In this document: positions 3,846 to 34,681 of the stretch, piece by piece
How positions within the stretch are numbered: the first letter of the stretch is position 1
Layout: each line of letters starts with the position of its first letter
Source of the DNA: a virus
Virus record (IMG/VR): IMGVR_UViG_3300031227_000200
Location: 1 to 35,486 of that record
Reading direction: 5' to 3' (one strand)
DNA length: 35,486 bases
Notes under the pieces: generated by a model
Databases searched by the model: none
Seen by the model: the letters and a program-made list of their open reading frames with translations, nothing else
Told to the model about the DNA's origin: nothing
Made by a program: the position numbers and the translations under genes

Positions 3846-4565
3846 TTAGCTTCCCTGCTTCTCCGCTTCCTCGGCCAGCGCCTTCTGTTTCACTATCACT
3901 TGGCTGCGCGTCACCCATGCTTGCTTATACTGCACGTCCGCAAAGAGCTTTGAGAAGCCGGTGATGTGCTTGAGGCGCAATAGTTCCTCCGGCTCCATGC
4001 CGAGTTCGTTACACACCTGCGCATCAGTTAGCCCCGTGTCCAACATCCCGAATACGAGGCTTGACATGCCCTCTACGGTATGCTTCCCGCGCGCCCTGTT
4101 GTAGCGGACTGTTGACGCCATGCAATCGCCGACACCATTGTCGATGACTACGCACGGTAGTAGGCCATCAGTTGAATCACGCACTCCCTGATTCATGACC
4201 ATAACATAGTAGCGGTGGAAGCCATCAACGATCACGTACTTATCCCGCTCTTCATCATAGATCGTAACCACTGGTTGGGTGTAACCGTCGTGCTGGATAG
4301 ATGTAAGCAGCAGGCCCATTTCTATCTGCGCGACCTTGTTCGGGTTGTAGTCGTTCGGCTCTATCTGCTCAAGTGGTATCCAGATGACCAAGTCAACCGG
4401 TTGGGTCTTGCATGGCGACAGTTCGTGTAACCACTGCCGCACCTGCGCTATGGCGTCCAGGCGGTCGGGTTGAGCACTTACCCATGCATCTATTGCCTGA
4501 CTGCTTACGCTGGTTCCTGCTTGCACCTCTGCCATGCTTGATGTGCCGCTAGCCATGTTGACCAC
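3846..4565 (-). CDS. ParB/sulfiredoxin-fold protein, IbrB-like
   Basis: A ParB N-terminal-type domain fills the middle: IPLEQIEPNDYNPNKV, then IQHDGYTQPVVTIYD, then the GFHR of VDGFHRYYVMV, matching the G-x-x-R phosphate-binding motif of the fold. A helical C-terminal half with a likely HTH (LTDAQVCNELGMEPEELLRL) follows. Proteins of this type are often encoded beside a PAPS-reductase-like gene, as with IbrB and IbrA of E. coli prophages; the next gene upstream is exactly that. The two overlap by up to 61 bases. The start is uncertain: a GTG at 4565 has a weak GGA site, and in-frame ATGs at 4556 and 4535 are possible. The biochemical role is not established here; DNA or nucleotide modification, or gene regulation, is inferred. 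Confidence 0.82.
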   Translation of the reverse strand: MVNMASGTSSMAEVQAGTSVSSQAIDAWVSAQPDRLDAIAQVRQWLHELSPCKTQPVDLVIWIPLEQIEPNDYNPNKVAQIEMGLLLTSIQHDGYTQPVVTIYDEERDKYVIVDGFHRYYVMVMNQGVRDSTDGLLPCVVIDNGVGDCMASTVRYNRARGKHTVEGMSSLVFGMLDTGLTDAQVCNELGMEPEELLRLKHITGFSKLFADVQYKQAWVTRSQVIVKQKALAEEAEKQGS

Positions 4566-5596
4566 TTCGTTCCGTGATAGTCATTCACGAGAACCATATT
4601 GACATGGAGCTTGTGCAGCTCTTCGTGGTACTCGTCTGCTATATACTTCTCGCCCTTAGCAAACTGCTTACGCAACTCTGCGCGTATGTCTGGGTCGGCT
4701 ATCATATTCTCGCAAAGATGGTCTCGATATTCCCGCCAGTCAACAAACATCGGCGGGAGTTGTTTTGGTGCGTACCAACCGCCCTGCAACTGTTTGACGC
4801 AGTTGACTCCAGTAAGCCGTTCGGTGAGCTTGTTCCAAGTATCGCCCTCAATTTCTTGTAGGTATTCTAGCGTGTGCACAGCCGTCTCGTGATGAACATT
4901 CGATACGCGCATATTTCGCGTAGGGATACCATGCTGGTACATAGCATCATAGATTGGACAGTATTCCCATCCATGTTCGTGAATGGCCTTCCAGACATCA
5001 GTATATGACCAGTCGTAAATTGGATGAAAAATGTAGGAGTCTTTGTACTCTCGTTTACCCCAAGTCATGCCCTTGTACACGTTGCCCCGCGTCAAGCCCG
5101 CTCGCCGCGCCGGGCTTTCTTCGGCCCGTACTCCAGTAATGCGACAGCACTTCTCGCCTGGGTGTTCCTTCTTCATGTACGCGGCGAATAATTCTATAAA
5201 CCTGTCGGTGCCATAGATATTTTCATGTATGCTGTTGGGTTCCTTTTCCCGCATCCAGTTCGCGCCGGGCTCCCAGCAGTGTAGCCACGGATCAAATGGC
5301 GATGTGGCATTGAATATCCTGATAGGGCATTGCAGCCACAGCGGCTCTACTTCTGGCCTGTCCATAACTAAGCGCATATAGCTGATAACTGATGCCCACT
5401 CCGCTTCTTGGTCAATGAAAAAGACAGGCACCGGCAAGCGACCTTTCTCCCTCGCAACCTCTATGGCTAGGTTGGCAATAACGGTGGAATCCTTGCCGCC
5501 GGAGAAGTTCACGATGACCACCGGGAACTCATCGAATAGCCACCCGATGCGTTCGGTAGCCGCCTCCAATACGTTCTCTGGCAGGTACATTCTCAC
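4505..5596 (-). CDS. PAPS reductase-like protein, IbrA-like
   Basis: 363 residues with the PP-loop signature SGGKDS at 32-37 and the downstream GVRAEESPARR typical of PAPS-reductase family proteins of the IbrA type. PP-loop enzymes activate substrates by adenylation; known relatives act in sulfate reduction, tRNA thiolation and, in the DndC branch, DNA phosphorothioation. Other visible elements are FHPIYDWSYTDVWKAI, NMRVSN and Cys residues at KCCRITG. The stop of the methyltransferase gene upstream overlaps a GTG start (GTGA); an ATG two codons later is an equal alternative. It pairs with the ParB-like gene. A sulfur-related DNA modification is a hypothesis only. Confidence 0.88.
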   Translation of the reverse strand: MRMYLPENVLEAATERIGWLFDEFPVVIVNFSGGKDSTVIANLAIEVAREKGRLPVPVFFIDQEAEWASVISYMRLVMDRPEVEPLWLQCPIRIFNATSPFDPWLHCWEPGANWMREKEPNSIHENIYGTDRFIELFAAYMKKEHPGEKCCRITGVRAEESPARRAGLTRGNVYKGMTWGKREYKDSYIFHPIYDWSYTDVWKAIHEHGWEYCPIYDAMYQHGIPTRNMRVSNVHHETAVHTLEYLQEIEGDTWNKLTERLTGVNCVKQLQGGWYAPKQLPPMFVDWREYRDHLCENMIADPDIRAELRKQFAKGEKYIADEYHEELHKLHVNMVLVNDYHGTKWSTWLAAHQAWQRCKQEPA

Positions 5597-8879: not shown

Positions 8880-10991
8880 CTACTCTGCTCCCGAATCGCC
8901 ACCTGCGGAAGCCTCGTCGCCACAATCACCGCTTGCGGCTTGGTGCGCGGCATCCCTCTGTGTCCGCGCCTGCTCGAGCGAGTCCGCCTTGCCCGTCTGC
9001 GCCTGCTGGTCGAGCGAGAAGTACGGTACGCCGTCCGGCGTGCCATCGTCCAGATAACCCGCCGGCACGCGATAATCCCATCGGCATCTGCCGTTCGGCT
9101 CCTCGATGATGTAACTGACGGCGCCGGATGGGAAGCAGGTCGTTTTGATCGTGCATTGAGTGGCTTCGTCGAAGGCGGTGTGCTCGGGCTCGGGGCGCGG
9201 GTCGGCGGTAGCAGCATGGAGGTTCCGGAGCGCCTCGTTGAGGTCGGCCTGGATAGTGTTGCGCTCCTGCTTCAATCCCTCTACCCGACCGAGTAACCCG
9301 TCGCGCTCGATCCGCAAGGCCTGCTCCACGTCGCGCCTTGCAGCTACGTCAGCCTCCAGTTCCGCCACGCGCTTCTGGAGCTTCACTTCTTCAGGGCTAA
9401 AAGCTGCCCCACACGCTCGGGCGAACTCTTCATCAGTGCCCCAGGTCGCCTGCGCCATAACGGTAACAGCCTCCACGGATTCTCTGGCCTGCAAATCTAG
9501 CCGGCCCACCTGTGTATCATTGCAGACCACTCGGGTAGCTCCGGGGAATAGTGACGACGGCCCCATGGAGTAGATTTGGTCGATAACGTGAACGCATCCG
9601 CTATCGTACCCATGAAGCACCATTGTCGGCGGCGGCGAGGTTTCCAGTTCCGCGACATCGGGCTCAGGTTCCGGCTTCTCCGCATCGCAACAGGGGACGC
9701 TTGCGGGGCGCCTCTTCATCGCCGCGATCTCCCCCTTGATTTCCTCGAGACTCTCGCGCACGAACGCATTGAACCGTCTCCCGCTATCGCTCATCCAGGA
9801 TACTGCCATGCTGTCGCACGTGTGGCTATACTCAATGTGGGTGTCGTGAATATCGCAGATGATTGGTTCGGCATCCGGCCCCTGGTAGTGCAGAATGAAC
9901 TCGTCGGGGCCACAATCTGGTTCCGGCTTCTCTGCCTGCGGGCAGGGGACGCCAGCAGTAGTGGCGACGGCGATGATGCCTTCTTCGGGCATCTCAACGT
10001 AGAAGCCACAGTCAGTATTGTCCCACCGATTATTCCAGGGGGCGGAGTATGACCCCTGCACGTTGTAGTACAGGCCATCATCCTCCACAGCAGTCAGCGC
10101 AGTGATTTCGCGAAATGCTATGGGACCGCTGGTGGTCGCCAGCACCACGACCGGCGGCTCGGCACCTTTGCAGCTCCACGGTTGCCCGGGAGTATCCCAC
10201 GCTTTGCGGGCAGCAATGGTGATTTCGGCGGGGGTCTCAATGACGATGCAGGAATAACCGACCGGCAACTCTACCCCGCCTTCTTTCCGTCCGCGCACCA
10301 TTCGCCTGCGGCCCTTGTCCTCAATGGAAGTTATGGTCTCGAATACGAGTGGCGCGGGCAAGAGTCCAATGCCATCATGCAGCGTCACCGTCTTCGCCAG
10401 TCTCGGCACCGCACCATCGCAGTCGAAGTCGGGCCAGACCTTGCGGGCGGCGGCGGTGACTTGGGCGGGGGATTCGGACACAACGGCGACACTACTGCGT
10501 GAGCCGTCGCCATATGTACATAGCCCTACCACAAGGCAGGCATCTCCAACATGACCCTCGTATGGCTTGATTTCCGCAATCGCCGAAAATGCGGGGAATA
10601 GGCTAGAATCAAAAGCGCTTGTCAGCGCCACCGTCTTCGGTTTGTTCTCCGCCGGTTCCCGCTCCATCCGTTCAAGCCAGTCCGTCAACTTCCCGGCCAA
10701 TGGCCCATCGCCGCTGCGCTGAAACACTGCCCTGGCCTTGCGAACATCCTCCATGCACCCGTCTCCGAGTTTGCCCATCTCTGCACCTCCAGATTTGACT
10801 ACCTCACCCGTAAGTATCGCGTCCATCTGCTCAAGCACCGCAAGCCTGCCAGCCATGTTCGCCGCCCACGTTTCCTGCTCGTCCGTGCGGGCATGGGCTG
10901 GTATTACGCGGACTTCGTCGAGCCGCCTGCGCACATCGGCCTTCTGCGCGGCGATCCACAAGCGCAGCTTACCAACTCTGGTTCGGATCAT
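8880..10991 (-). CDS. Large protein with five divergent FlbD-like repeats and a coiled coil
   Basis: 703 residues, the longest product here. Residues 1-60 are helical. About 120-517 hold five diverged repeats of 61-67 residues starting near 120, 201, 281, 365 and 457. Each opens with a strand such as TVTLHDG, ILHYQG or MVLHGYD, has a central I-x-x-I, and ends in E-S/T-P-x-E-I or RESVEAV, four then running into an alanine helix and Trp. This resembles the short FlbD-like beta module. Residues 533-590 are a coiled coil (LQKRVAELEADVAAR). The tail carries a piece shared with the protein at 18293-18550 (FPSGAVSYIIEEPNGRCRW). ATG 10991 has AGAGGTGA upstream and overlaps the helicase gene by 23 bases. 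The role is unknown. Confidence 0.85.
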   Translation of the reverse strand: MIRTRVGKLRLWIAAQKADVRRRLDEVRVIPAHARTDEQETWAANMAGRLAVLEQMDAILTGEVVKSGGAEMGKLGDGCMEDVRKARAVFQRSGDGPLAGKLTDWLERMEREPAENKPKTVALTSAFDSSLFPAFSAIAEIKPYEGHVGDACLVVGLCTYGDGSRSSVAVVSESPAQVTAAARKVWPDFDCDGAVPRLAKTVTLHDGIGLLPAPLVFETITSIEDKGRRRMVRGRKEGGVELPVGYSCIVIETPAEITIAARKAWDTPGQPWSCKGAEPPVVVLATTSGPIAFREITALTAVEDDGLYYNVQGSYSAPWNNRWDNTDCGFYVEMPEEGIIAVATTAGVPCPQAEKPEPDCGPDEFILHYQGPDAEPIICDIHDTHIEYSHTCDSMAVSWMSDSGRRFNAFVRESLEEIKGEIAAMKRRPASVPCCDAEKPEPEPDVAELETSPPPTMVLHGYDSGCVHVIDQIYSMGPSSLFPGATRVVCNDTQVGRLDLQARESVEAVTVMAQATWGTDEEFARACGAAFSPEEVKLQKRVAELEADVAARRDVEQALRIERDGLLGRVEGLKQERNTIQADLNEALRNLHAATADPRPEPEHTAFDEATQCTIKTTCFPSGAVSYIIEEPNGRCRWDYRVPAGYLDDGTPDGVPYFSLDQQAQTGKADSLEQARTQRDAAHQAASGDCGDEASAGGDSGAE

Positions 10992-12363
10992 CCTGCTCAC
11001 CTCTTTCGCTGCCTCTTTCTACATCAAAAAACCGAGAGCCGTGGGCATAGTCCACAAAATAGGGCAGCTCCCCGAACTCACGGATGCTCCGTGCCGCCTG
11101 GCATCGGATGATGCCAGTGTCCTTCTTGCGCTTCTTCTCATCCATATCGCGAATCAAAGACATAACGATGCTTGCGTCCTGTGTGGCACCGCGACTGCCA
11201 TACGTCAACGGGTTCCCGCGTTCATCCCAACTAATCTGTGAAGACAGGAGCAGCGGTGCCCGCACGTCCTCAGAGACCGACTGGAGCGCCCGCGCTATCT
11301 GCGTCAATGATTCACGTTCCTTGGCACCTTCACTCAGGCGTTGCAGATAGTCCACGACAATCAGGCCAATGTCGCCGCGCTGCTGCTCTACCTGTATCGC
11401 GGCGACTGCTTCATCAACGCTACGAATCCTATCGGCAATGACCACCGGCAACTCGCACAACTGTCCATGCCCTTCCGCGATACGTTCGCTGATTTCGTCC
11501 TTCTGTTCTTCCGGGCACCTGCCGGGCAAGCTCAGTTGTGAGTTCACCCGCGCTAGCCAGCAGCAAGCAAGCCGAATCCACGACTGGCGGCCCTCCTCCA
11601 ACGGAATGACAAGTACGCGCTGGCGCGTAGCCTCGTCCTGCGCGGCGAATTGTATCGCACTACTCAATGCGCTCTGGACTGAAAACGATGTTTTCCCCGA
11701 CTTTTCTTGGGACATCATCACCACAAGGTACATCCCTCCGTATCCTCCGGTCGCATTGTCAAGCGCGGGGATGCCGCTCCGTGCCGCTGTTACGCCATAG
11801 GGCTGGTTGATAGCCGCGTGCAGGTTTAGCGCGTCCTCTTCCCAGCCGTCGGCAACCGAAGCCGTCTGTGCCCGTGTGTTTCCCTCAGCCAGCTTCAAGG
11901 CGCCCGTCACGGCCTCGGCAAGCAGCGCGCCGGCGTCTTCCGGGTTGGCGAGTGCCTTTTGTTGCAGTTCTGTGCCGAAGGCTATCATGCGCCGCACGCT
12001 GCTCCGGTCGCGGACAATTATTGCCGAGGCCATCGCGTCTGCGGCATTGCCAATCAGCGCGACCTCGTGGATCAACGCCATCAGATACTCGCCGCCGCCA
12101 CACTCTTCGAGCTGGCCCCGCTGCTTGAGTAGCGCCGCAACAGTCACCAGGTTTACCGGCTCTCCCGCTGCGGCCACGGTAGCGACTGCGGCAAAGATGC
12201 TTCGGTGGGCCTCCCGGTAGAAGTCGTCTGCGGTTAGCTCCCGCACGCACAACAACGCAGCCGCCTTGTCGATAAGCGCGTTGCCGATGACAGCTTGCTC
12301 GGCCTTTAAATCCTCGGGAGGTAGGCGTTGCTCGCCCGGCGGTAGTGCCCGCTGGTTGCTCAT
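10969..12363 (-). CDS. dnaB: DnaB-like replicative helicase
   Basis: 464 residues. The N-terminal helical domain of DnaB is recognisable (LKAEQAVIGNALIDK, DDFYREAHRSIFAAV, VNLVTVAALLKQRGQL). The RecA-like core has an unusual Walker A loop, SQEKSGKTS (219-227), where most DnaB proteins have a G-x-x-x-x-GKT loop, and a Walker B strand LIVVDYLQRL (334-343). The arginine-finger region near the end is less clear. It should unwind DNA ahead of the fork after loading by the DnaC-like protein encoded two genes upstream. Its start overlaps the Mom-like gene by four bases (ATGA). The length is typical of phage DnaB. Confidence 0.92.
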   Translation of the reverse strand: MSNQRALPPGEQRLPPEDLKAEQAVIGNALIDKAAALLCVRELTADDFYREAHRSIFAAVATVAAAGEPVNLVTVAALLKQRGQLEECGGGEYLMALIHEVALIGNAADAMASAIIVRDRSSVRRMIAFGTELQQKALANPEDAGALLAEAVTGALKLAEGNTRAQTASVADGWEEDALNLHAAINQPYGVTAARSGIPALDNATGGYGGMYLVVMMSQEKSGKTSFSVQSALSSAIQFAAQDEATRQRVLVIPLEEGRQSWIRLACCWLARVNSQLSLPGRCPEEQKDEISERIAEGHGQLCELPVVIADRIRSVDEAVAAIQVEQQRGDIGLIVVDYLQRLSEGAKERESLTQIARALQSVSEDVRAPLLLSSQISWDERGNPLTYGSRGATQDASIVMSLIRDMDEKKRKKDTGIIRCQAARSIREFGELPYFVDYAHGSRFFDVERGSERGEQDDPNQSW

Positions 12364-13013
12364 GCGTCGCCTTTCTCGATTTGTTGGAGCGTGCGGGTCG
12401 GGTTCGCACCGCCTGCCTCAGGTGGTCGCCGAGGCCCTTCTTCAAGGCGCACGCTCTTATCCAACAGGTATATCCAACAGTCCTTGTCGTGGTCATAGTC
12501 CGAATGACCTTCGCGGTGCCCGCGCTTGCTCGTTGGGCTATTGCCGTGCAACTGCCCCTTGGCGCGACGCAACCATACGAAGTTCGCCGCCTTGTAAATC
12601 GCGCCAGTGTGCCGCGTACTGTCTGACCAACTGACTACAAGCCGAGGCGTCTTTGCATCGCGATACACAGTCAACCAGTCATGGACTATAATCCGCAGTG
12701 ACTTGCCAATAGCGCAACTGGCAACGTTCGGAGTATTTGACGCGAGGTACAGGCGAGCAAACTCAAGTAGTTCGTCGGAAGGTACACCGCACAACGGCAC
12801 GGACATCATCGGGTAGGCGTAGGTCAGAACACCGTCCACCTCTCCATCAAGCAGGACGGCATAATTCAGTTGCCTGCCGGTTCGCGCCCGTCGCAAGTAG
12901 TGACGTTGTTCAAGGGCGAAGCGGGCATCGGCAACTGATACACGTCGCAACTCTACGCGATGCTTGAGCGACGCCGCCTTGTCTGGGCCAAAGAGTGAGC
13001 GTTGGCCTATCAT
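12360..13013 (-). CDS. Mom-like DNA modification protein (GNAT-fold)
   Basis: 217 residues starting MIGQRSLFGPDKAAS. The pattern ALEQRHYLRRARTGRQLNYAV, LLEFARLYLASNTP, CAIGKSLRIIVHDWL, LVVSWSDSTRHTGAIYKAAN and FVWLRRAKG fits the Mom family. Phage Mu Mom uses a GNAT-like fold to turn adenine into a carbamoylmethyl form that blocks restriction enzymes. The S-x-D-x-x-x-x-H-x-G-x-IYKA-x-NF stretch is the most telling. A perfect AGGAGGTGG lies before ATG 13013; an earlier in-frame start 25 codons upstream is rejected. It lies between loader and helicase, an odd but compact place. The family is likely; the exact chemistry is inference. Confidence 0.75.
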   Translation of the reverse strand: MIGQRSLFGPDKAASLKHRVELRRVSVADARFALEQRHYLRRARTGRQLNYAVLLDGEVDGVLTYAYPMMSVPLCGVPSDELLEFARLYLASNTPNVASCAIGKSLRIIVHDWLTVYRDAKTPRLVVSWSDSTRHTGAIYKAANFVWLRRAKGQLHGNSPTSKRGHREGHSDYDHDKDCWIYLLDKSVRLEEGPRRPPEAGGANPTRTLQQIEKGDA

Positions 13014-13780
13014 GCGTCCACCTCCTGCCAATCCGCAATATTCATCTGCGTCCGTTGACTCGCCGCGTTCGTCTGCAATAGTACGCACCGTTCTTTCAGG
13101 CGGTCAAAGATGCGCCGCAACGAACCATCCTCCGCAAGCTGCTTCGCCATGGCGTTGCTGGCTACACAGGTTGACAGCCGCAGCCCGTGCCGATGTTCGA
13201 TGAATCTGTGAAGCTCGGCCAGCGGCCAGGGCGCAGCGTATTCCTCGCCCAAACCATCAAGCAGTATAAGCTCTGCTTCGAAGTAGTAGGCCGCGTCATC
13301 GCCCCGGTGGAATATGCCGAGGAGGTCGGCGACGTGGATATAGGTCATGCGCTCAACGTAAGCCGTTGCCGCCGCCAATGCTATCAGCGACAGGGCGCAG
13401 GTCTTGCCGACACCGACATCGCCCAGGAGCAACACTCCGTCGCCGGCCCGCGTGCGCCTGAGTATCGTATCGCAGTAGAGCTTGACGCCCTCCTGAAACT
13501 CGGCGGGCAGGCGGTCGAAGCTCGGATGCTGCGCGTCTATCGGTATCCGGGTATTCTCCCGGTACGCAGCCCGCGCAAACTCCCGGCGGCCTGCGATGTG
13601 CGGACAACCAGCGCGACCAAGCGGGCAGGGAAGCAGGAATGACTGGACGCCGACAAGCCCGTCGCAGGCAACCGGATCGGTTGGACAAAGCGCATCCCAG
13701 TCCTTCGCGGCCACCGTCCCTTGCAGTTCGGCCTTCGCGTTAGCTACCTGCTGCTCGTAAATGTCCCGTTGCGAGGTCAT
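13010..13780 (-). CDS. DnaC/IstB-like AAA+ helicase loader
   Basis: 256 residues. Walker A GDVGVGKT at 120-127 and Walker B LILLDGLGEE at 171-180 are clear, with SNAMAKQL as the probable sensor region and RIFDRLKERCVLLQ at the arginine-finger position. Four Cys in the N-terminus (CPTDPVAC, CPLGRAGC, residues 32-59) may bind zinc, as in some loaders. It should load the DnaB-like helicase encoded just downstream onto origin DNA. The start overlaps the initiator stop (ATGA). Order initiator, loader, helicase is a classic phage replication module. Confidence 0.9.
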   Translation of the reverse strand: MTSQRDIYEQQVANAKAELQGTVAAKDWDALCPTDPVACDGLVGVQSFLLPCPLGRAGCPHIAGRREFARAAYRENTRIPIDAQHPSFDRLPAEFQEGVKLYCDTILRRTRAGDGVLLLGDVGVGKTCALSLIALAAATAYVERMTYIHVADLLGIFHRGDDAAYYFEAELILLDGLGEEYAAPWPLAELHRFIEHRHGLRLSTCVASNAMAKQLAEDGSLRRIFDRLKERCVLLQTNAASQRTQMNIADWQEVDA

Positions 13781-14859
13781 CTGTTATCATGGCTCCCCGT
13801 CATAGTGCTAAGGTCTATCTCACCTGTTGGCGCAGTGGAGAAGTCACCGGGCTCCCACACGCCGGGGCCTTGGTTGCCGGAGGTGCCGCGTGCGCTGTCC
13901 TTCTGTACCCCAAATCCCCAAGGCTGATTGACCGCCAATCGGAACTGCTTGCAAAAGAATGCCCAGGGATTGGCGTTTCCGGTCGGTTGCGGCTTTGTGG
14001 CAAAGCACATCTTCACCTGTTGTTCGATGACTTCCCACCCGTCTGCTACAAAAAGTTGAGTGAGCCGCGAGTAACCCTTCAACTTACCGTCCGGCATGTT
14101 GCCAAGGTCAAGCATCTCCCAACACTCCCGGATGACCCTCTGGACATCCGTTTCATTCGGCTTCTCTGGAGCAGGTGGTTCGGGAGTATCATCGGGGAAA
14201 AGAGTAGGAGAGTTTTCAGAACCCGCCGCGTCAGCGGCGAGGTTGTTAAGGCCGTTACTTCTTAACTTCTTAACGTCGTTAACTTCTTGTGAATCGCAAC
14301 CTCCGTCCCGAGAGGTTGTTTCCTCCGAAGTATCCTCGCCACCAGCCCCTGCGCCAGTTGGTGTGCCAGCTTCCAATCCTCCGTTTGGGAAGGTTGGATT
14401 GTTCAAAGTGTCATCCTCCGTTTCAGGAGGTTGGCATCCTCCGTTTGAGAAGGTTGGAACCTCCGGCTTAGGAGGTTGAGCGTTTTCTGCAGGAGTGGCA
14501 TCCTCCGTTTCAGAAGGTTGTTGAAACGCATCATAATTCATGATCCGCAAGCGGCCCCGGCTGTTGTGGTGCGAGGTCCTGCCGCGCTTGTCAATAATGA
14601 CTAGCCCCGCCTCGATCATAGCGGTCTCTACTCGTTGCGCGGTAGAATACCCAACCTGGAGCGCTACCGCTCGCTGTTCGCGCGGCCAGGGCTTCCCGTC
14701 GAGATCGCACAGGCAACCACGGTACGGCTCCTGCCACCGGGCCAGCATGACGTACTTGAGGAATGCCAGTTGTGCCGACTTATCTAGCTTCATCAAGCTG
14801 CTCTCGGGCCGCAATGCCTGCCGGTGAAACTTCACCCAACCGTTTTGTTCTACGCCCAT
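13777..14859 (-). CDS. Replication initiator (O-like), winged-helix N-terminus, carries the likely origin
   Basis: 360 residues. The N-terminal ~105 residues (GWVKFHRQALRP, LDKSAQLAFLKYVMLARWQE, VALQVGYSTAQRVETAM, AGLVIIDKRGR) look like the winged-helix DNA-binding part of phage initiators. A long, low-complexity linker (residues ~115-265) is encoded by the repeat array at 14298-14521. The C-terminus (VIRECWEMLDLG, KGYSRLTQLFVADGW, ANPWAFFCKQF) probably contacts the loader or helicase. Lambda O has the same plan, with iterons inside its own gene. ATG 14859 has AGGAAG upstream; 37 extra in-frame codons before it overlap the next gene and are rejected. Confidence 0.85.
   Translation of the reverse strand: MGVEQNGWVKFHRQALRPESSLMKLDKSAQLAFLKYVMLARWQEPYRGCLCDLDGKPWPREQRAVALQVGYSTAQRVETAMIEAGLVIIDKRGRTSHHNSRGRLRIMNYDAFQQPSETEDATPAENAQPPKPEVPTFSNGGCQPPETEDDTLNNPTFPNGGLEAGTPTGAGAGGEDTSEETTSRDGGCDSQEVNDVKKLRSNGLNNLAADAAGSENSPTLFPDDTPEPPAPEKPNETDVQRVIRECWEMLDLGNMPDGKLKGYSRLTQLFVADGWEVIEQQVKMCFATKPQPTGNANPWAFFCKQFRLAVNQPWGFGVQKDSARGTSGNQGPGVWEPGDFSTAPTGEIDLSTMTGSHDNR
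14298..14521 (+). repeat. Iteron-like repeats, likely replication origin
   Basis: Six copies of a ~22-base unit with core CCTCCG-TTTN-GRAGGTTG lie at 14298, 14375, 14412, 14435, 14458 and 14499, three of them spaced 22-23 bases apart. Most are themselves imperfect inverted repeats; the one at 14458-14477 is AACCTCC-N6-GGAGGTT with perfect arms. They fall in the linker of the initiator gene. Copies are read in two different reading frames (QPxETED in some, PTFxNGG in others), so the DNA, not the peptide, is what is conserved. By analogy with lambda O I infer initiator-binding sites. Confidence 0.7.
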
Positions 14860-14869
14860 TGGTGACTTC

Positions 14870-15022
14870 CTAGTCGCGAAGCAGTATGCCCAACAGCGCG
14901 CTAAAGCAGGCGAATATGCCCATGAAAATAGCACCGTCCACGTCGGCGCAATACTGGATGCAGATAGCACACCCCATGACGAGTATTGATACGCCCCAGA
15001 ATACGAATATGCTCCAGTTCAT
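14870..15022 (-). CDS. Small two-helix membrane protein
   Basis: 50 residues, too short for a routine length cut, with two hydrophobic segments (WSIFVFWGVSILVMGCAICI and IFMGIFACFSALLGILL). GGAGGT lies eight bases before ATG 15022. It is the first gene after promoter and leader element E1 and directly precedes the initiator gene. The function is unknown; small inner-membrane proteins at the head of early operons sometimes alter host physiology or superinfection. Confidence 0.8.
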   Translation of the reverse strand: MNWSIFVFWGVSILVMGCAICIQYCADVDGAIFMGIFACFSALLGILLRD

Positions 15023-15047
15023 ATTATCCACCTCCAGACAAAAAGAC

Positions 15048-15173
15048 AAGGCCACCCGCGTATCGCAAACCGCATGCCCGGCGAGGGGAATGGAGGTCAT
15101 TGCCGCAGGTGGCCTTTATCGGTTGTGGTGTTCGTGGTGACATGAAAAAACTCCATTCTCTCTCTCGCCGGGT
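15048..15173 (-). ncRNA. Leader RNA element E1 with interleaved stems (A-B-A'-B')
   Basis: The 5' strand of stem A starts at the predicted +1 (15173). Stem A pairs 15164-15172 with 15077-15085 (CCCGGCGAG with CTCGCCGGG) and, after an internal loop, 15151-15158 with 15088-15095. Stem B pairs 15104-15116 with 15048-15060, 13 bp with one G-U. The linker between stem B 5' and stem A 3' is 8 nt. The strands come in the order A, B, A', B', which is pseudoknot order. A U-run follows B', then the ribosome site of the small membrane gene 25 bases on. E2 and E3 share the plan. The function is unknown. Confidence 0.72.
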
Positions 15174-15179
15174 GCCCTC

Positions 15180-15208
15180 AGTATATACCCCGCCGGCGCA
15201 GGAGTCAA
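15180..15208 (-). promoter_or_regulatory. Sigma-70-type promoter for the replication operon
   Basis: On the minus strand TTGACT (15203-15208), a 17-base spacer, and TATACT (15180-15185). Six bases after the -10 lies the predicted +1 at 15173, where element E1 begins. The -35 box includes the TGA stop of the methyltransferase gene. I see no operator palindrome. Confidence 0.85.
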
Positions 15209-16128
15209 GCCTCATCCGGCCAAGTATCCATCTGCGGCTGCGCGGGCTGGGCTTCGGCGACAGCCTCAGGGATGCGGAGCGCTGTCTCTGCCTCCATCAG
15301 CGTTGCCCCCAGAAGCTCCGCGCAGCGCGCCATAACGACTGCCGCCACTTGCGGAACCCATCCGTTACCGAGCACTCGCAGCCTGTCCACCCAATTGGGA
15401 ATCCCATCAGCCACTCTATCCACGTCGGGTTCAGCGGCCCACCAGTTTCCCGCGCTATCGCCGTCGCCAAGTCGTCGCCTCCGCTGCCCGGCCTGTTCGC
15501 CCTCGCATAGTCCGGCCCCGAGGGACTGCCCTTTGGCGTCGGCCACATCCTTCTTGCCATTACCACTTCTAGATTGGGAAACTTCTCCTTGGCAATCGCT
15601 GGTATAATAGTTCTTGTCATTATGATAGAGCTGCGCGGTGTAGGCCACGATCCAGACTCGTTTTCGCAGGTGCGGCGCACCAACGTCTGCAGCCGATATA
15701 GTTGCCCATTCCGCATCAAGCCCGTCGCTGGCAAACTCTCCGAGTATTCTTCCCATCCCCCGAGCAAGCAAGCCTGGTACGTTCTCAATGAGCACGAGTC
15801 GGGGTCGTATCTCGCGAATGATTCGCCTTGTGTCGGGCCATAAATCACGCTCGTCGGCTGCTCCTCGGCGCTGCCCTGCAACGGAATAGGGCTGACAGGG
15901 GATGCCTCCAAAGAGGAAATCCACTCGGTCACGCCACGGTCGCCCGTCGAAGGTCCGGAGGTCATCCCATATTGGCGCGTCGCAGATAACTCCGTCGCGC
16001 ATCCGGGCTTGCAGGAGCTGCTGGCAGTAGGGGTCGCGCTCGACGTAGCAGACGGTTCGCCCGCCGAACTCTTTCCAGACTGCGCTTCCGATGCCACCAC
16101 CGGCGCATATATCCAGGCCATTTAGCAT
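15205..16128 (-). CDS. dcm: DNA (cytosine-5) methyltransferase
   Basis: 307 residues with the C5-methyltransferase motifs in order: motif I LDICAGGGIGSAVWKEF (from residue 5), the catalytic GGIPCQPYSVAGQRRG with Cys78, ENV at 115-117, ISAADVGAPHLRKRVWIVA (motif VIII region), and the late GIPNWVDRLRVLGNGWVPQVA (motifs IX-X). The target-recognition part between ~165 and 240 is short. Motif X reads GNGWVP rather than the common GNAVVP. AGGAGG precedes ATG 16128, and a longer in-frame form is rejected. It should methylate a specific cytosine and guard phage DNA. An open frame of 274 codons overlaps it in another frame on the same strand. Confidence 0.92.
   Translation of the reverse strand: MLNGLDICAGGGIGSAVWKEFGGRTVCYVERDPYCQQLLQARMRDGVICDAPIWDDLRTFDGRPWRDRVDFLFGGIPCQPYSVAGQRRGAADERDLWPDTRRIIREIRPRLVLIENVPGLLARGMGRILGEFASDGLDAEWATISAADVGAPHLRKRVWIVAYTAQLYHNDKNYYTSDCQGEVSQSRSGNGKKDVADAKGQSLGAGLCEGEQAGQRRRRLGDGDSAGNWWAAEPDVDRVADGIPNWVDRLRVLGNGWVPQVAAVVMARCAELLGATLMEAETALRIPEAVAEAQPAQPQMDTWPDEA
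15297..16121 (-). CDS. Possible overlapping gene in an alternative frame of the methyltransferase
   Basis: 274 codons stay open in a second frame on the same strand. The product has pieces I recall from phage and prophage proteins annotated near C5 methyltransferases: SFARYDPDSCSLRTYQACLL, WEEYSESLPATGLMRNGQL, WPTPRSS, WPTPKGS and GPLNPTWIEWLMGFPIGWT. The last is encoded by the same bases as the methyltransferase segment RVADGIPNWVDRLRVLG. It has no good ribosome site, so it may be read by overlap or be a passive by-product of the conserved main frame. I rate expression as unproven. Confidence 0.35.
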   Translation of the reverse strand: MAWIYAPVVASEAQSGKSSAGEPSATSSATPTASSSCKPGCATELSATRQYGMTSGPSTGDRGVTEWISSLEASPVSPIPLQGSAEEQPTSVIYGPTQGESFARYDPDSCSLRTYQACLLGGWEEYSESLPATGLMRNGQLYRLQTLVRRTCENESGSWPTPRSSIIMTRTIIPAIAKEKFPNLEVVMARRMWPTPKGSPSGPDYARANRPGSGGDDLATAIARETGGPLNPTWIEWLMGFPIGWTGCECSVTDGFRKWRQSLWRAARSFWGQR

Positions 16129-16298
16129 GATTCCTCCTGTGATCTGTCCCTCGGCATAACCCACTTCACCGGACGAAAACCGCGACAGAGATGACCGTAT
16201 GGCTTGCACCTATAGCCGGCGGGGTCCTCCGTGTAGTGGCGGAAGTCACTGCACTTCCCGCACCAGATGCGCGTGTTCTTCTTGTTGGGCGCTGGCAT
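16122..16298 (-). CDS. Small Cys-rich protein, possible zinc ribbon
   Basis: 58 residues starting MPAPNKKNTRIWCGKCSDF. Cys13-x2-Cys16 and Cys31 with Cys38 (YRCKPYGHLCRGF) could hold one zinc. GGGAGG lies before ATG 16298, and the stop overlaps the methyltransferase start by seven bases, so it is probably coupled to it. The family is not recognised. Confidence 0.8.
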   Translation of the reverse strand: MPAPNKKNTRIWCGKCSDFRHYTEDPAGYRCKPYGHLCRGFRPVKWVMPRDRSQEESC

Positions 16299-24624: not shown

Positions 24625-25302
24625 CTACACTACCTCGAATGTCCGCTCTTCGTCGGGCTGCTTCATCCGCACGAACTCGACAACCAGGCCGGTGCCGGAA
24701 TGCACGAAAGAGCCATCTGCCTGTTCCTCGAGGCGCTCCTTGAATGGCGTCCTTGCTAGCGTTTCATTGATGACGCCGAGCATTTCCTGTGCGTGCGCGA
24801 AGCCCAGCGCGGCGTCCTCATCCCATACAATATACGCCCGGTTCTTCTTCATCATCAGCTTGACGCCGCAGGGCAACGCCACGCTCGTCTCGTCGGCATG
24901 GAAGTCGCCGAAATACTGCTCCAACACATAGGCGAAGAAACTCTGCGCCCGCAGGTGCTTCTGCGTCTCAGTCTGCTGCCACTTCCGTATCTGCGCTATC
25001 TGGCTATCGGCTACCGTGTCCACCTCGGCACATTTCTCCCGCGCCCGCGCAACCTTCTGCGCCGCCCAGTCTGCCAAGCGCATTGCGCCTCCGGCCTCGC
25101 CGCCTGCGTGATCGCGGATGTTCCAGCCGGTACGTTCCGCGTCAACTATCTGGCCGGCAGTGATGCCAAACTCCGCCGCTACATACTCCTCCAGCGCGCC
25201 TTCGAGGTCGCCTTCGTCGGTCACGCCCAGAACCTTCATCAACTCATTGCGTTCTTCGTCCGTTGCGTCATCCAACATTTCCCGTGCGTCTGCCATTGTC
25301 AT
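24625..25302 (-). CDS. gam: Gam-like host-nuclease inhibitor
   Basis: 225 residues. The central coiled coil (VADSQIAQIRKWQQTETQKH) followed by SFFAYVLEQYFGDFHADE, VALPCGVKLMMKKNRA and IVWDEDAAL matches the Mu Gam type, which binds DNA ends and blocks host exonuclease degradation. An extra N-terminal ~100 residues holds short helical regions. A GGAGGG precedes two ATGs six bases apart; the first is at 25302. Together with annealing protein and SSB it forms a recombination set. Confidence 0.83.
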   Translation of the reverse strand: MTMADAREMLDDATDEERNELMKVLGVTDEGDLEGALEEYVAAEFGITAGQIVDAERTGWNIRDHAGGEAGGAMRLADWAAQKVARAREKCAEVDTVADSQIAQIRKWQQTETQKHLRAQSFFAYVLEQYFGDFHADETSVALPCGVKLMMKKNRAYIVWDEDAALGFAHAQEMLGVINETLARTPFKERLEEQADGSFVHSGTGLVVEFVRMKQPDEERTFEVV

Positions 25303-27262: not shown

Positions 27263-28435
27263 TTATCGCATGACCTGCATCGGCATGAGAACGTACAACC
27301 CGCGCTTCCCGCTACTGCAACGCAGAGGAGACAGCGGCCCGTTGGCTTCGATTGTGACCTTCCCGTCGCCAAGCCGGTCGAGATACTGTGTCAGATATTC
27401 ACCGTTGAAGGCGTGCGCGAGCGCTGGTTCTTCTATCGCCATGATTTCTGCGGAGACTGGCATGGTGCTCTCCGCGACAGCCTGCCCTTCGTCATTAGCC
27501 GTCATCGCGCTCAGGTGCCAGATGCCGTCGCCGAGGTGGGCCACCACTCGGCAAGCATCCTGTTTGGCTATCGGCGCAAGCGCAGTCAAAGCCGCCCGCG
27601 CCTCCTCCACGTCCACTATCCACTGATAGGTGCGGCCCTCTTCCGGGATGACCTTCGGATAGTTGACGTAGGTGCCCTCGAGACACAACCCGCGCACCTG
27701 GCGATTGCAGGCGGTGAACGATAGGGCCTTCGCCTCATCCCGGCCCTTCGCTGGCCGCACTGCCGCAACGGTCACCAACTCGTCCTCGGCTACTGTGCTC
27801 AACGCCTTCTGCACGTTCCTGAGCGTCGCCGTGGGCAGCAGGGCGTAGTCGGCAAGGCGCTTGCCCAGCTTGATCCTCGCCGCGCCCGTGACGAGCCTGT
27901 AGGTGTCCGTTGCCACTGCGGTGAGGCGGCTTCGATTGGTAGCCAGATACACGCCGGTGAGTATGGGCCGCGTCAGGTCAGTTGATGCCGCGAAGCTCAC
28001 GTCGGCCAGCAACTCCTGCAAGTCGCCCGCCGGAATGGTGAACCAGTGCCGTGCATTGTCCGTGTTGACGCATTTCCACTCGCTGGGTTTCGGCGTCTTG
28101 GTGGCACAGATTACTGAGCGCAATTCACCAACCCGGAGCACCTGATTGCCTGCGGCTTCGCTCAGGCTGAATTGCACACCCCGCTTCGTTACCGGCTTCA
28201 ATGCTGCGCGGAGAAGCGCGGTCGGTAGAATCATCTGTCTGTCTTTGAGCTTCGCGTCCCGCTCTACCTCGAGCGTCACCGAGGCATCGTGCCGCTCGCC
28301 GTCTGATAGCCGCAACGTGCAGGCGTTGCCCTTCGCGGATAGTTGTAGGTAGGGCGTCTCCTGAGCGCCGAGCTTGCCCGGCATACTGATACTTGTGAGT
28401 GCTTGTTTCACGTCTTTGGCGTCCGCTATAATCAT
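27263..28435 (-). CDS. dnaN: DNA polymerase III beta sliding clamp-like protein
   Basis: 390 residues, the length of bacterial DnaN. Recognisable elements of the three-domain clamp are FAASTDLTRPILTGVYLATN, RLTAVATDTYRL (domain 2), ALAHAFNGEYLTQYLDRLGD and GKVTIEANGPLSPL (domain 3), and YVLMPMQVMR at the end, where DnaN has YVxMPM. Such clamps encircle DNA and bind polymerase. There is no polymerase gene in the window, so it may recruit the host's. GGAGGG precedes ATG 28435. Confidence 0.9.
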   Translation of the reverse strand: MIIADAKDVKQALTSISMPGKLGAQETPYLQLSAKGNACTLRLSDGERHDASVTLEVERDAKLKDRQMILPTALLRAALKPVTKRGVQFSLSEAAGNQVLRVGELRSVICATKTPKPSEWKCVNTDNARHWFTIPAGDLQELLADVSFAASTDLTRPILTGVYLATNRSRLTAVATDTYRLVTGAARIKLGKRLADYALLPTATLRNVQKALSTVAEDELVTVAAVRPAKGRDEAKALSFTACNRQVRGLCLEGTYVNYPKVIPEEGRTYQWIVDVEEARAALTALAPIAKQDACRVVAHLGDGIWHLSAMTANDEGQAVAESTMPVSAEIMAIEEPALAHAFNGEYLTQYLDRLGDGKVTIEANGPLSPLRCSSGKRGLYVLMPMQVMR

Positions 28436-34006: not shown

Positions 34007-34654
34007 CTAGATGGATATTCCCTGCCAGTACACCGGGACCGCCAGGATATCATCATATATCGGCAGGCCTCTGCTCGCTATGATGCCGCGTTCTGTCTGC
34101 GCACCGTCCGACGCCTCCCAGTTTGGCATCATCATCATGGCCTCACTGGGGTCAAGCCACGCGATACAGTTGTCCAGGTGAGCCTTCCTCAGTATGTCAG
34201 GAAACTTGCTCTCAAAGTGTGCGCTCTCCGTGTGGGGGCAGTAGGTATAGTGTCCCCTGCGCATAAGTGCTGCTTTCATCATCGCAGCCTGCTGGATATG
34301 CTCTTCGACGCAACTCTCGGGCAGCGCATTGTACGGGCCGCTGATAAAGAACCTGAGCGGATCGTCGCACTTGGGCAGGTTCTCAGTGGCGACATTCAGG
34401 GCTATCGCTGCTGCCGCAATCCTGTCCTGCGGGACATCCATCCCGCGCCGCGCCTGCAGGACAAGATAAATCCAGTTATCCATCAACTCCTGCAGGGCCT
34501 CGAGCGCATGGTCAACCCACGGGTGCAGGTGATTGTCCGCACCATACTCTGCTTGTCCTGCGCGAAACCGGCTGAGCAGGATATCCTGTAGCGGCTCCGT
34601 TAGCTCGTTTCGTTGCGCCTGCTCATTGATTAGCTCAATGGTCTCGTCTGGCAT
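34007..34654 (-). CDS. Deoxyribosyltransferase-like protein with MazG-like N-terminal part
   Basis: 215 residues starting MPDETIELINEQAQ. Residues ~25-72 (LLSRFRAGQAEYG, HALEALQELMDNWIYLVLQA) look like the helical nucleotide-binding part of MazG-type phage proteins. Residues 100-215 (LRFFISGPYNA, CPHTESAHFE, AWLDPSEAMMMMPNWEASDG, AQTERGIIASRGLPIYDD) match nucleoside 2-deoxyribosyltransferase/DUF4406 proteins, which move or cut deoxyribosides. I infer nucleotide-pool work. GGGAG lies before ATG 34654. Confidence 0.8.
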   Translation of the reverse strand: MPDETIELINEQAQRNELTEPLQDILLSRFRAGQAEYGADNHLHPWVDHALEALQELMDNWIYLVLQARRGMDVPQDRIAAAAIALNVATENLPKCDDPLRFFISGPYNALPESCVEEHIQQAAMMKAALMRRGHYTYCPHTESAHFESKFPDILRKAHLDNCIAWLDPSEAMMMMPNWEASDGAQTERGIIASRGLPIYDDILAVPVYWQGISI

Positions 34655-34681
34655 ACCGTCATCTCCCTTTACCCGCACTCA

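Follow-up and report, generated by a model that had tools for sequence, protein, structure and literature searches.

An iteron array inside the initiator gene of an uncultured phage as its predicted replication origin

Origins within initiator genes

Origins of replication formed by iterons inside the initiator gene are already known from lambda, SPP1 and some staphylococcal plasmids. Lambda has four annotated iterons in gene O, imperfect dyads in the part of the gene encoding the linker of the initiator, which occupy the codon phases 0, 2, 2, and 1 and are followed on the C-terminal-coding side by an AT-rich stretch. Six iterons are carried by the Stx phages 933W and P27 (PMC7466680). In SPP1 the origin oriL, located in gene 38, likewise combines direct repeats with an AT-rich element inside the initiator gene, and gp38, gp39 and gp40 provide the initiator together with a loader and a phage-encoded DnaB-family helicase (PMC6316719). 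In pSK41, a RepA_N plasmid, four Rep boxes placed centrally in rep are bound by the N-terminal domain of Rep, the central linker of the protein is encoded by ori, and in the chimeric pPR9 the N-terminal domain and the origin have been swapped as one unit (PMC5703833).

The DNA analysed here stems from an uncultured phage and comprises 35,486 nucleotides (the window). Its architecture suggests, with a probability of roughly 85%, that the linker region of the initiator gene doubles as the replication origin of the phage, i.e. as an intragenic theta origin bound by its own product. What is new in this case is an initiator foreign to the sequence libraries. Like lambda, the phage has imperfect-dyad iterons in the initiator-gene linker in more than one codon phase, and an AT-rich block on the same side of them. 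Unlike lambda, the initiator has no detected similarity to O families in Pfam and PHROG, helicase loading is assigned to a DnaC-like loader and a phage-encoded DnaB, and the iterons are spaced wider and less regularly. In the number of iterons it equals 933W and P27, and the layout of initiator, loader and helicase genes is that of SPP1, although no counterpart to the second SPP1 origin, oriR, was seen. It differs from pSK41 and pPR9, which are plasmids with four boxes and a RepA_N initiator, a domain for which the Pfam search gave no match in the present protein; the contact of the pSK41 Rep C-terminal domain with DnaG primase is a further difference. The features are listed in Table 1.

Table 1. 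Positions of the iterons, neighbouring elements and replication genes in the window
Feature	Position	Strand	Sequence	Basis or remark
Replication initiator gene, 360 aa	13777..14859	-		likely ATG 14859, stop 13777; C-terminal homology
Iteron 1	14298..14318	+	AACCTCCGTCCCGAGAGGTTG	codon phase 1; most diverged; adjoins AT-rich block
Iteron 2	14376..14396	+	ATCCTCCGTTTGGGAAGGTTG	codon phase 1
Iteron 3	14413..14433	+	ATCCTCCGTTTCAGGAGGTTG	codon phase 0
Iteron 4	14436..14456	+	ATCCTCCGTTTGAGAAGGTTG	codon phase 1
Iteron 5	14458..14478	+	AACCTCCGGCTTAGGAGGTTG	codon phase 0; perfect 7-bp arms
Iteron 6	14500..14520	+	ATCCTCCGTTTCAGAAGGTTG	codon phase 0
AT-rich block, candidate DNA unwinding element	14255..14294	.		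stability rank and repeats versus synonymous shuffles
Junction segment, 27 bp, shared with L006/L007	14215..14241	-	CTCGCCGCTNNCGCGGCGGGTTCTGAA	alignment
DnaC-like helicase loader	13010..13780	-		PHROG 50 and 3277; start overlaps initiator stop
Mom-like DNA modification gene	12360..13088	-		PF25680; inserted between loader and helicase genes
DnaB-like replicative helicase	10969..12363	-		PF00772, PF03796, PHROG 19

Iterons and AT-rich block

A repeat search, for which positions 13500-16000 were read, located six units of 21 bp in the linker of the initiator gene. They are direct repeats of common orientation and imperfectly palindromic. The six copies announced by the original prediction for 14298-14521 are thus present, the sixth ending one base short of that range. 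An approximate alignment yields the consensus A[A/T]CCTCCGNNNNNN[G/A]AGGTTG. The start-to-start spacings of 78, 37, 23, 22, and 42 bp are unequal, so that the array is not a simple tandem; iterons 3-6 form a compact group, from which iterons 1 and 2 are set apart without regular phasing. The arms AACCTCC/GGAGGTT pair at seven of seven positions in the copy at 14458 and at five to six of seven in the remaining five, which bears out the inverted repeats described earlier. No extra copy is found on either strand in the rest of the window. A search of viral contigs with the iteron pattern returned six contigs with a single copy apiece, matches expected by chance in a collection of this size.

The occupation of two reading frames had been claimed before, and it is real. 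On the coding (minus) strand the three copies in phase 0, at 14413, 14458 and 14500, are translated to QPPETED, QPPKPEV, and QPSETED, respectively, and the three in phase 1, at 14298, 14376 and 14436, to TSRDGG, PTFPNGG, and PTFSNGG, the peptides named at that time. The property is not a special one, however. As the lambda iterons span three codon phases, keeping iterons across frames is a trait of the textbook case, and the earlier remark that the lambda origin also lies inside gene O holds for all four annotated iterons.

Selection at the level of the DNA, as originally proposed, was assessed by shuffling synonymous codons with protein sequence and codon usage fixed, and counting the repeat copies. 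A thousand shuffles of the initiator gene gave at most three copies and an independent set of 500 at most four, versus the six in the actual gene. When five more genes of the window were tested likewise, each reached one to three copies and none more, those of the highest case being in-frame. Lambda O, the only positive control, gave back its own four iterons. Further support comes from the distribution of the changes. Thirteen of the 21 columns of the unit are invariant, and one of 16 in the flanks; the eight variable columns are column 2 and seven consecutive ones (9-15) forming the central spacer, a clustering with a P of about 0.001 under random placement. Invariant arms around a variable spacer are the pattern expected of a dyad bound by protein, as predicted here, and one which selection on the peptide or neutral duplication would be hard-pressed to create because the codon phases differ. 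Shuffle test, arm/spacer pattern and lambda control together show the constraint at the level of the DNA to be real.

Flush against iteron 1, the outermost repeat, lies an AT-rich block which the original prediction had not mentioned. It ranks fifth in instability among the non-overlapping 40-mers of the 35-kb contig, with about 0.07% of positions scoring higher, and similarly unstable regions are present elsewhere along the contig. Its coding strand reads AGAAGTTAA at 14287-14279, again AGAAGTTAA at 14270-14262, and AGAAGTAA at 14262-14255, so that three copies of AGAAGT(T)AA fall in three different codon phases. This threefold repetition was reached in none of 2000 synonymous shuffles, and in AT content the block surpasses 98.9% of them. 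The block is likely the unwinding element completing the origin, with melting as its predicted role.

The initiator and its relatives

In its layout the protein consists of a predicted N-terminal DNA-binding domain, the linker encoded by the repeats, and a C-terminal domain also present in L006 and L007, a pair of uncultured phages which are nearly identical to each other and count as one independent comparison. Neither domain matches a Pfam or PHROG family, even at E-values up to 5, and the protein does not match the lambda O / Phage_rep_O profile. Its identity as an initiator is supported by the C-terminal domain shared with L006, by the gene order, and by the repeats. From the designation as O-like initiator in the original prediction the second word can therefore be retained, whereas the likeness to O is an analogy without a family match. 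Predictions of the structure from the single sequence were poor, with a pLDDT of 40 for the whole protein and 45 for the N-terminal domain. The order of helices and strands in the latter is compatible, at low confidence, with a winged helix; Foldseek with this prediction gave, as was to be expected, a meaningless result and no confident fold. No relatives of the N-terminal domain were found among the viral contigs, phages and plasmids searched. Five matches in Roseibium genomes turned out to be DnaG primases having the short stretch AMIEAGLVI in common with it.

The initiator gene is followed by the loader gene, the Mom-like gene and the helicase gene. A reading frame of 706 amino acids at 8880-11000 (minus strand), which has no convincing match in Pfam or PHROG, overlaps the DnaB-like gene. 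Upstream of the initiator gene a C5-cytosine DNA methyltransferase is encoded at 15205-16209 (minus strand). Three of the distant DnaB relatives (L010-L013) were read, and their initiators are different ones with no evident similarity to the present one.

Over its C-terminal 84 residues the initiator shares 82% identity with a protein of L006 and L007. In L006 this protein has an N-terminus with a match to PHROG 1408 (replication initiation protein) at an E-value of 1e-7, and a homologous loader follows which is 32% identical to the present DnaC-like loader. In the alignment, similarity between the two initiators starts at LAA.AAGSE, and nothing detectable is shared upstream of this junction. 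In the junction segment, which contains a CGCCGC-4 nt-GCGGCG dyad at 14224-14239, all eight codons for identical residues are themselves identical, compared to 55 of 88 over the whole aligned part. Up to 14241 the N-terminal domain, iterons and AT-rich block are all different in L006/L007, and their contigs contain no copy of the present iterons. The L006 linker (L006:2887-2993) has 11- and 12-bp direct repeats of its own, candidate iterons of that phage; the 12-bp repeats are all in one frame and hence indistinguishable from peptide repeats. The N-terminal domain and its predicted sites have been replaced together in the relatives, as would be expected if the two are functionally matched, which would add a further case of joint exchange of an initiator half and an origin. 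When other phages were searched for the junction segment, only the L006/L007 contigs came up. The segment is a possible recombination anchor. It is a tentative and rather doubtful extension of this that DNA-binding domain, iterons and melting element make up a self-contained cassette which moves between unrelated phages at this fixed site; if so, a single crossover inside an open reading frame would swap the origin specificity.

Predicted initiation and alternative explanations

The components of an intragenic iteron origin are found together at this locus: direct repeats between the DNA-binding and the C-terminal domain, an adjacent AT-rich element, and a module of loader and helicase. From this architecture a course of initiation can be proposed. 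The six iterons would be bound by the N-terminal domain (about residues 1-115) of the protein in the middle of whose gene they lie, each imperfect dyad probably taking up a dimer, and the complex formed would melt the adjoining AT-rich block. The conserved C-terminal domain would then bring in the downstream-encoded DnaC-like loader and DnaB-like helicase, after which theta replication would begin. All of these steps, from binding and melting to the recruitment of the helicase and the activity as an origin, are deduced from the arrangement of the sequence elements.

A cluster of dyad sites could just as well serve a regulator, and autoregulation is common among initiators. The repeats might hence be operators at which the initiator or another regulator tunes or represses transcription, with the true origin located elsewhere, and a sigma-70-like promoter candidate (10/12) is indeed present at 15208-15180 (minus strand) upstream of the replication genes. 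The sites lie, however, away from this promoter, 340-560 bp inside the gene, and no copy occurs elsewhere in the contig; they adjoin an AT-rich block and have been exchanged jointly with the N-terminal half of the initiator, all of which renders the operator explanation improbable. Still less probable is that the repeats arose by recent duplication on the spot, in a linker under no constraint and devoid of any binding function, their frames differing by spacings which are not multiples of three. Against this, variation is limited to the central spacer and one arm position, both arms are kept in the diverged copies 1 and 5, and the flanks are otherwise unrelated. A few extra flanking bases shared by copies 3, 4, and 6, the low complexity and tolerance of the linker, and the availability of one genome only speak for this origin of the repeats. 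That the repeats act as hairpins in the mRNA is very improbable indeed: the RNA of the region does fold better than shuffles (z -3.1), but a comparable excess (z -2.6) results with parameters for single-stranded DNA, as with any inverted repeats, the arms contain mismatches in five of six copies, and an Rfam search was without match.

The prediction of an origin from the initiator iterons thus stands as the best-supported reading. The switch in GC skew suggested as a check is absent from the site; as the skew is negative throughout the contig, it is uninformative on the origin, neither for nor against. The reading places a specific and testable candidate origin at about 14215-14530 in an uncultured phage, and this despite an initiator which the family libraries do not recognise. 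Where protein homology fails, such origins can thus be revealed by intragenic repeats that occupy several codon phases.

Elsewhere in the window, far from the replication module, a DNA polymerase processivity factor (sliding clamp-like, PHROG 947) is encoded at 27263-28435. A Mu Gam-like end protection protein (PHROG 2205) is found at 24625-25302, a phosphoadenosine phosphosulfate reductase-like gene at 4505-5596, and a nucleoside 2-deoxyribosyltransferase-like gene at 34007-34678, all four on the minus strand.
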